A stretch of DNA of 64,000 bases from positions 2,170,001 to 2,234,000 of the forward strand of contig NZ_JACBZS010000001.1 in the NCBI RefSeq assembly GCF_013408305.1, in the 5' to 3' direction. The position numbers were made by a program, and so were the translations under genes. Shown piece after piece: positions 6,643 to 63,055 of the stretch; positions within the stretch are counted from its first letter, which is position 1; every line of letters begins with the position of its first letter. The stretch comes from Naumannella cuiyingiana. Lineage in GTDB: Bacteria > Actinomycetota > Actinomycetes > Propionibacteriales > Propionibacteriaceae. The notes beneath the pieces are model-generated. The model was not told the DNA's origin. It worked only from the letters and a program-made list of their open reading frames with translations, and did no database searches.

Positions 6643-7560
6643 GTGACGGAGGAGACGAGGGACGAGGCGGACGAGATCCTCGACCGGCTCGCCAACCCTG
6701 ACGTCCTGGCACGCGGTTCGGGATGGAAGATCGCGCCGGGTCTTCTCGCGCTGGTCGCCTATGCCGCGGCCTGCGGGTGGCTGGTCGGTCCTTGGTTCGC
6801 GTTGCTGATGCTCGCCATCATCCCGCTCGGGCTCGGCATCTTCACCTGGGCGCGCCGTGCCGCGAAGGGTGGACGACGTCCGGGCCCCGTGCAGGTCGGC
6901 CTGATCGGCGTGGGGCTCGCGATGCTCGTCGCCAGTTCGGCCCTCGGCCTCGGTCTCGGCCAGGCGGCGCCGATCCCGGCGGTCGTCGCGACGCCGTCCC
7001 CGCGACCGACCCCCAGCGAGACGCCGACGCCGAGCGAATCCCCGACTCCCACCCCGACTCCGAGCCCGACTCCGAGCCCCAGCCAGACCTCGGACAACTC
7101 GGGCGGGGGCGACGACGAGGCGGATGCCGATTCCGGCACGGGCTCCGGCGGCCAGGGCGACTACGACGAGCCCGCGCCGCGGCCGCGGCAGCCGGACTCC
7201 CAGCGGTCCGACAACGGTGGCGGCGACAGCAACTCCGATGACGACAAGGGCAGCGGCGGTTCGGGCAACGGTGACGGCGGCTCGGGGAATGGCAGCGGCT
7301 CGGGCAACGGCGACGGTGGCTCCGGCAATGGTGACGGCGGCTCCGGTTCCGGCAACGGCGACGGCGGTTCGGGCAACGGCGGCGGCTCCGGTGATGGCAG
7401 CGGCGCCCCGGACCCGGGCGGCGGCGATCCCGGTCCCGGCGATGGCGGCGGGGATCCGGACCCGGGCGACGGCGGCGGAGACCCCGGCACCGGTGAGACC
7501 GGCGGGGCTGGCCCGGGCGAGCCCGGGGCCACGGACGAGATGGTGGCGCCGACTCCCTGA
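6643..7560 (+). CDS. Membrane protein with Pro/Thr/Ser linker and Gly-rich repeat tail
   Basis: I do not recognise a family. The 305-residue product starts with an acidic cytoplasmic region (about residues 1-35), then three hydrophobic segments (about 36-54, 55-72 and 85-106). A Pro/Thr/Ser stretch (about 110-150) and a low-complexity acidic Gly/Ser/Asn/Asp tail built from GSGNGDG-like units fill the rest. Proline-rich linkers of this type often cross the peptidoglycan, so the tail is probably outside the membrane. GTG 6643 follows GGGGAGGG and is preferred to an in-frame start 162 bases earlier inside the galE promoter region. It lies next to the polysaccharide locus but shares no operon with it. 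Confidence 0.75.
   Translation: MTEETRDEADEILDRLANPDVLARGSGWKIAPGLLALVAYAAACGWLVGPWFALLMLAIIPLGLGIFTWARRAAKGGRRPGPVQVGLIGVGLAMLVASSALGLGLGQAAPIPAVVATPSPRPTPSETPTPSESPTPTPTPSPTPSPSQTSDNSGGGDDEADADSGTGSGGQGDYDEPAPRPRQPDSQRSDNGGGDSNSDDDKGSGGSGNGDGGSGNGSGSGNGDGGSGNGDGGSGSGNGDGGSGNGGGSGDGSGAPDPGGGDPGPGDGGGDPDPGDGGGDPGTGETGGAGPGEPGATDEMVAPTP
7249..7410 (+). repeat. Coding minisatellite for GSGNGDG units
   Basis: Imperfect tandem repeats of about 18-21 bases, always in frame, encode the Gly/Ser/Asn/Asp tail. Such tracts can change length by slippage. Confidence 0.75.
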
Positions 7561-59523: not shown

Positions 59524-59625
59524 GTGGGTTCTGTGATCAAGAAGCGCCGCAAGCGGATGGCGAAGAAGAAGCACCGCAAGCTGCTCAAGCGCACCCGCAT
59601 CCAGCGCCGCCGCGCCGGCAAGTAA
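59524..59625 (+). CDS. Small ribosomal protein bS22 (AURKAIP1/COX24 domain)
   Basis: A 33-residue, extremely basic protein, [20 protein letters not shown] and then [13 protein letters not shown], that matches the actinobacterial bS22 family of small-subunit ribosomal proteins (Rv0500B). GTG 59524 is chosen because AGAGG lies upstream and the family begins at this point. It is too short for many gene callers. TACGCT at about 59391-59396 could be its -10. The SDR-like gene starts 19 bases downstream. Confidence 0.88.
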
Positions 59626-61972: not shown

Positions 61973-62219
61973 GCGGGCTCGATCGCCAGCCGCGGGCTCA
62001 AGCGGCATCCGCGGGTGGTGCAACGTTCGCATCTGCCGTTTCGGTTCGCGGTTGGGGCGGGTTGGTGCCAGCCGCGGGCTCAATCGGCAGCCGCGGGCTC
62101 GATCGGCAGCCGCGGGTTCAACCGGCAGGTGCGGGTTCATCCGGCAGCCGCGGGCTCGATCGGCAGCCGCGGGTGGTGCAACGTTCGCATCTGCCGGTTC
62201 GGTTCGCGGTTGCGGCGGG
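61973..62219 (+). repeat. Compound tandem repeat: 19-bp units and duplicated 51-bp block
   Basis: The 355-base gap 61969-62323 has no gene. It holds two 19-bp units (61973-62010), a 51-bp block (62011-62061), five 19-bp units (62074-62168; consensus GCGGGCTCGATCGGCAGCC) and a second 51-bp block (62169-62219) that differs from the first at two positions. The 19-base period is not a multiple of three, so it is not a coding repeat. Right of it are the rex promoter (62238-62266) and leader. Confidence 0.9.
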
Positions 62220-62237: not shown

Positions 62238-62266
62238 TTGTTCCCGCGTTCACAAGGTCATAACAT
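62238..62266 (+). promoter_or_regulatory. rex promoter with overlapping Rex operator
   Basis: TTGTTCCCGCGTTCACAA (62238-62255) matches 15 of 18 positions of the Rex site TTGTGAANNNNTTCACAA, with the right half perfect. TTGTTC (62238-62243) is also a good -35 and TAACAT (62261-62266) a -10, 17 bases apart. Rex bound here would block RNA polymerase; NADH would release it. Confidence 0.8.
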
Positions 62267-62323: not shown

Positions 62324-63055
62324 GTGAGCGAGCCGGATGCGCACATCCCGGATGCCACGGTCGCCCGACTCGCGGCCTATCTCGGGGTGCTGACCCGGCT
62401 GTCCGACCAGGGCGTCACCACCGTCTCCAGCAATGAGCTCGCCGAGGCGGCCGGCGCCAACCCGGCGCAGTTGCGCAAGGACCTCTCCCATCTCGGCTCC
62501 TACGGGGTCCGGGGGGTGGGCTACGACGTGGCGTACCTGCTGGTCCAGCTCGACCAGCATCTCGGCGCCGGCCCGGATGTCCCGGTGATCATCGTCGGCG
62601 TCGGCAATCTCGGCCGCGCGCTGGTCAACCACGCGGGCTTCTCGTCCCGGGGCTTCCGGGTGGTCGGCCTGGTGGACTCGGATCCGGCGCTGGCGGGCGA
62701 GCGGGTCGAGGGCCTGCCGATCGCGCCCGAGTCCGCGCTCGAGGAGCTGATCGCCCAGACCGGGGCGAGCATCGCCGTGATCACGACGCCGGGGCAGGCG
62801 GCCCAGTCGGTCACCGACCGGCTGGTCGCGAGCGGCATCACGGGCATCCTGAACTTCGCGCCGGCGGCGCTGTCCGTTCCCGATTCCGTGACGGTACGCA
62901 AGGTCGACCTCGGCTCCGAGCTGCAGATCCTCGCCTACCACCATCGGCGCGGCCCCGCCTCGCGTACCGCCGTCGAACCGATCACCGCCAGCCTGCCGCC
63001 GGTCGCGGCGAGCCAGGTCGAACCGAGCCAGAACGTGAGCGTGCCGAAGCCATGA
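62324..63055 (+). CDS. rex: Redox-sensing transcriptional repressor Rex
   Basis: Rex senses the NADH/NAD ratio and represses respiratory genes when NADH is low. The 243-residue product has a winged-helix N-terminus (about 10-80: VARLAAYLGVLTRLSDQG, SSNELAEAAGANPAQLRKDL, GVRGVGYDV) and an NAD-binding Rossmann domain (VIIVGVGNLGRALVNH, VVGLVDSDPALAG), followed by the domain-swapped C-terminal helix (GILNFAPAAL, LGSELQILAYH). GTG 62324 follows GAGGAGG. It overlaps hemA (ATGA), giving the rex-hemA operon known from Streptomyces, and its own promoter carries a Rex site. Confidence 0.97.
   Translation: MSEPDAHIPDATVARLAAYLGVLTRLSDQGVTTVSSNELAEAAGANPAQLRKDLSHLGSYGVRGVGYDVAYLLVQLDQHLGAGPDVPVIIVGVGNLGRALVNHAGFSSRGFRVVGLVDSDPALAGERVEGLPIAPESALEELIAQTGASIAVITTPGQAAQSVTDRLVASGITGILNFAPAALSVPDSVTVRKVDLGSELQILAYHHRRGPASRTAVEPITASLPPVAASQVEPSQNVSVPKP

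Follow-up and report, generated by a model that had tools for sequence, protein, structure and literature searches.

Within the window (the whole 64,000-nucleotide stretch of DNA that was analysed), a repeat array at 61973–62219 is neighboured by a glutaredoxin-like DUF836 gene, rex, and hemA. The glutaredoxin-like gene (PF05768; 61723–61968) lies upstream with its stop 4 bases before the array, and rex, recognised by its domain matches (PF06971 and PF02629), occupies 62324–63055, both being on the plus strand, as are the parts of the array and the operator-like site. A Rex-operator-like site (TTGTTCCCGCGTTCACAA; 62238–62255) is located 18 bases downstream of the array, which is the distance given in an earlier, sequence-only reading of this DNA. 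Further upstream of rex, at 59524–59625, a very basic protein is encoded by a short gene, which G001, a genome of the same genus and the nearest available relative, likewise has upstream of its rex.

Anatomy of the array

In order, the array comprises 2 × 19 bp, a 51-bp block, 12 bp, 5 × 19 bp, and a second 51-bp block. The left arms of the first module are two 19-bp units (61973–61991 and 61992–62010; read from the sequence), after which comes block 1 (62011–62061; repeat finder and sequence), which contains the start of a further arm unit, the loop GGTGCAACG, a 19-bp right arm in inverted form (CTGCCGTTTCGGTTCGCGG), and the opening bases of the spacer. The rest of the inter-module spacer (12 bp; 62062–62073; read from the sequence) leads into the five 19-bp arm units of module 2 (62074–62168; TRF and sequence), and these are followed by block 2, with its own loop and inverted arm (62169–62219; read from the sequence). 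The 19-bp period was recovered independently by TRF (score 147), and the repeat finder is concordant. Here, the compound 19-bp/51-bp layout (2 × 19, 51, 5 × 19, 51) proposed in the sequence-only reading is confirmed, with the addition of the 12-bp spacer that it did not mention, and the two 51-bp blocks, for which only two differences had been claimed, do differ at exactly 2 positions. That reading was also right in viewing the array as not coding and as a segmental duplication on top of slippage, though it missed the inverted 19-mer within each 51-bp block, with each unit-block module being a hairpin.

Two 72-bp quasi-palindromic cores are matched by our covariance model R1, the first at 61985–62056 (E=3.2e-11) and the second at 62143–62214 (E=3.9e-12). 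As the distance from one core to the other is 158 bp, or 82+4×19, the ‘2, 51, 5, 51’ layout corresponds to two modules with differing numbers of extra arms. An assembly artefact, which had been named beforehand as an outcome that would overturn the earlier reading, is an unlikely source of the array, since the copies have diverged, are contained in one 3.49-Mb contig, and have an architecture common to 22 other loci. Elsewhere in the window (7254–7488), there are complex 21/27/39/87-bp tandem repeats with GGC-rich units.

A dispersed repeat family and its relatives

When used as a query against its own genome (3.5 Mb in two contigs), the array DNA gave about 40 matches at about 20 places, with a best E of 8.6e-32, and is thus not a product of chance. 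With R1, a 72-bp covariance model applied at a cut-off of E<1e-3, we found 44 cores at 23 loci in this genome. A side-by-side reading of the genome matches revealed that every 51-bp block ends with an inverted copy of the 19-mer, and that the quasi-palindrome follows a common plan, in which a 19-bp arm repeated n times is followed by an 8-nt loop and one inverted arm. The arm CCGCGGGCTGAACCGGCAG is followed by another short arm, then by a loop (e.g., GTTACTC, GATACTC, or GTTGCACC), and lastly by the inverted arm GTGCCGGTTGGGTTCGCGG. The basic module measures 82 bp. About 60 bp of this is the quasi-palindrome, in which a 19-bp left arm and a short left half-arm precede the 8-nt loop and the inverted right arm, and the remaining 22 bp or so is spacer. 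At nearly every multi-core locus, the cores are spaced 82, 120, 139, or 158 bp apart and so obey an 82+19n rule, the departures being three 1-bp deviations and one exception (L013, 333 bp), and the number of 19-bp units differs from locus to locus. At L013 (2000–2525), the cores 333 bp apart enclose the rule-breaking stretch, which could be an insertion between modules. An Rfam scan of the element gave no credible match to curated families, and no match to the array DNA was found in the plasmid and phage collections searched.

In G001, the Rex protein is 78% identical, and a short, array-free stretch that retains a predicted Rex operator (TTGTGCACAAGTTCACAA) separates the glutaredoxin-like gene from rex. 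This same-genus comparison is with one genome, whose intergenic DNA is too diverged to place the exact insertion ends, and it speaks for an insertion of the array upstream of a promoter that would work without it. The search of the repeat in its own genome and in relatives, as had been suggested earlier, gave 23 loci in the former, while the element is absent from G001, the one genome of the same genus, and from its rex locus. The sequence-only reading had also considered the array as a rex-specific regulatory spacer of variable length, or a protein-binding array, that tunes rex-hemA expression. The closeness of the array to the operator-like site fits with this, as does the locus-to-locus difference in the number of 19-bp units, which makes length variation plausible. 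However, the same type of array lies beside unrelated genes at 22 other dispersed loci, the G001 promoter and operator are kept without it, and its start just past the preceding stop codon is a typical position for a 3′-end repeat. We therefore hold a role in tuning rex-hemA to be very improbable, and the array is probably neutral for rex rather than a rex switch.

Among 199 genomes of the bacterial family, the R1 search identified distant cousins in five (G137, G148, G017, G108, and G197), and G137 contains both 19-bp arm arrays and a whole-module triplication. With R2, a mixed model, the carriers number 17 of the 199 genomes, counting the own one, and belong to 7 of 29 genera. Several of these have at least 20 matches among those listed, where a palindrome can be listed on both strands. 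Outside the family, R2 matches occur in 3 of the 395 sampled genomes of the class (own excluded), all belonging to other families. Among carriers, the skeleton GCG-N16-GCG-N14-CGC-N16-CGC is invariant or nearly so, and the arms between the skeleton positions differ among genera with their complementarity kept. In six genomes, 21 of 29 pairs have changed on both sides (151 cells vs. 72 ± 7 in shuffles; 0/500), with the caveat that the sequences compared are related. Within the own genome, there is no covariation between the arms (below shuffles), which gives no support to current selection for hairpin pairing there. Our search of open-licence papers for such repeats in Propionibacteriaceae, Microlunatus, and other actinobacteria returned nothing relevant.

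Gene neighbourhoods and orientation to the replication fork

None of the copies in the own genome lies inside a called gene (simple codon-usage gene caller), and the flanking genes are unrelated housekeeping ones, such as infB/rbfA, nusB, rpiB, groEL, and that for a PASTA-domain protein kinase. A Pfam scan of 20 flanking proteins found no transposase adjoining the copies, those that could be named being housekeeping. When the element positions were classified (24 from 23 loci, as L013 was entered twice), 12 of the 24 were between convergent genes, compared with 7 convergent pairs among the 58 gene pairs of the window (Fisher p=0.0005). This excess at convergent gene ends, together with a hairpin foldable on either strand, is what would be expected of bidirectional transcription terminators or mRNA 3′-end stabilisers that have been duplicated around the genome. 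Yet, no T-run is found 3′ of the core, 2 of the 24 positions are between divergent genes, and the arms lack covariation within the genome. Moreover, at L009, L014, L017, and L019, we noticed by eye that an ordinary GC hairpin adjoins the element and could already end the gene. Taken with these points, a terminator or stabiliser function is quite unlikely.

At one divergent position (L027, 1880–2100), two cores are situated upstream of a groEL gene, and adjoin inverted motifs of the TGGCACTC/GAGTGCCA type, similar to HrcA/CIRCE sites.

More conspicuously, the cores share one orientation relative to the replication fork. The replichores were set by dnaA at 1,761,046, with ter assumed to lie opposite, near 14 kb. 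Read on the leading strand, which has the same sequence as the lagging-strand template, the 44 cores contain 224 G:T vs. 34 A:C mismatches, and 100 G:G vs. 8 C:C. The excess of G:T over A:C is seen in 22 of 23 loci (p=6e-6) and in 10 of 10 convergent ones. In leave-one-out profiles, each of the 23 loci agrees with the leading-strand orientation, and flipping loci at random did not once in 4000 trials give an alignment as coherent as that of the leading strand. In DNA folding, the leading-strand sequence is more stable than its complement by a mean of 3.3 kcal/mol, and in 34 of 44 cores. The loop is found in both orientations relative to the arms, and thus either the loops flip or the arms acquire their bias in place.

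Two readings were rejected. Ordinary genomic strand skew as the source of the G:T bias is one, since the GC and TA skews are 0.19 and 0.31 in the cores (0.185/0.313), though only 0.05 and 0.02 in the intergenic flanks and 0.00 and 0.07 at four-fold sites, both of which are thus nearly unskewed. The other is a selected RNA hairpin in the own genome, because arm covariation falls below that of shuffles and the bias tracks replication rather than gene strand (at tandem sites, the gene strand agrees with the orientation in 3 of 9).

A further explanation, then, is that the repeats, with the rex copy included, are polar functional signals of the chromosome (for replication, segregation, recombination, or nucleoid-protein binding) held in one fork orientation. 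The coherence of all 23 loci, the G:T excess, the near-absence of skew in the flanks, and the failure of gene strand to account for the orientation at tandem sites are each in keeping with this. On the other hand, there are only about 23 sites in 3.5 Mb, these are unevenly spread and not conserved in G001, and in five other host genomes the orientation test fell short of significance (P 0.17–0.38), though near-perfect palindromes leave it with low power there. On balance, we regard polar signalling as unlikely.

Comparison with known repeats and a proposed origin

The BIMEs of Escherichia coli are clusters of palindromes with regular spacing. The array likewise has clustered, regularly spaced palindromes, though its spacing is 82+19n and there is no RAYT. 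The REP/REPIN elements of Pseudomonas and others are extragenic, dispersed palindromic doublets of about 70–100 bp that fold into hairpins, in which some positions are conserved, the stem varies, and changes compensate one another from copy to copy (PMC3116915; PMC2817692). The array family is similarly extragenic, dispersed, palindromic, and high in copy number, and is an inverted doublet with compensating stem changes across genera, if not within its own genome. Unlike REP/REPIN, however, its arms can be extended by 19-bp tandem steps, it shows a coherent fork orientation in its own genome, and the six carriers searched lack a RAYT. In fact, PF01797 (the Y1 domain of RAYT transposases) had 0 matches in the seven genomes searched (the six R1 carriers, i.e., the own genome and its five cousins, plus G001), with 5 control genomes being positive, and the element is thus REPIN-like, yet fails the RAYT part of the REPIN definition. 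As for the GTAG-/CGTC-tagged palindromic repeats (PMC3733652), shared features are tandem reiteration, G:T pairs that are common in the stems, and placement between genes that converge or run co-directionally, but the array core is longer (72 vs. 20–40 bp), its G:T pairs track replication rather than transcription, and by eye no GTAG or CGTC tag is seen at the ends of the aligned cores, which are CATCCGCG/CGCGGATG-like. BOX elements of Streptococcus pneumoniae (PMC3049150) are also modular and intergenic stem-loops, with variable internal tandem units between flanking modules. In the array, by contrast, it is the hairpin arm that serves as the internal unit, and the element is GC-rich, the comparison with BOX being one of modular plan.

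Altogether, we consider it probable (roughly 70%) that the array represents a single locus of an extragenic, dispersed, REPIN/BOX-like non-autonomous element that lacks a RAYT and has been enlarged by slippage. Such an element would have spread as a mobile sequence recognised by its hairpin, via some mobilising enzyme, with its left arm being repeated in 19-bp steps and the whole 82-bp module duplicated. Slippage during replication, along with unequal exchange at the palindrome, may then have enlarged the arrays, and the rex copy would have inserted between the rex promoter and the glutaredoxin-like gene, with little or no part in Rex control. We found neither a transposition event nor a target-site duplication nor an enzyme that would mobilise the element, and strict fork orientation, which is not a known REPIN property, could point to function instead of a dispersed element. 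More speculatively, and at low odds, the copies might represent a family of dispersed hairpin repeats in actinobacteria, fixed in their 19-bp geometry and spread or maintained through single-stranded DNA of the lagging-strand template by a non-RAYT enzyme, and with every copy laid down or kept in one fork orientation.

For the dispersed element that we favour, the finding concerns a family spread over the genome instead of a single promoter, and in hosts free of RAYT one must ask what mobilises the REP-like hairpins. Moreover, the fork orientation in nearly skew-free DNA is directly testable, and the outcome would tell single-strand spreading apart from a polar function in the chromosome. The skeleton, together with the 82+19n period, offers a usable search model for GC-rich actinobacteria.

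Other palindromic repeats were seen in two of the genomes compared. In G001, there is a different dispersed palindrome of about 60 bp (CATCTGTTCCGCAG...CTGCGGAACAGATG), found at L162, L170, L180, and L198, with 5 clear pairs in the 0.72 Mb sampled. G017, a host of the R2 family, has dense palindrome clusters with CCTTGAGCCTGTCGAAAGG/GTTTCGACAGGCTCAAC that make up another repeat family (L154, 13600–13900; L158, 2400–2660; and L160, 6700–6870).
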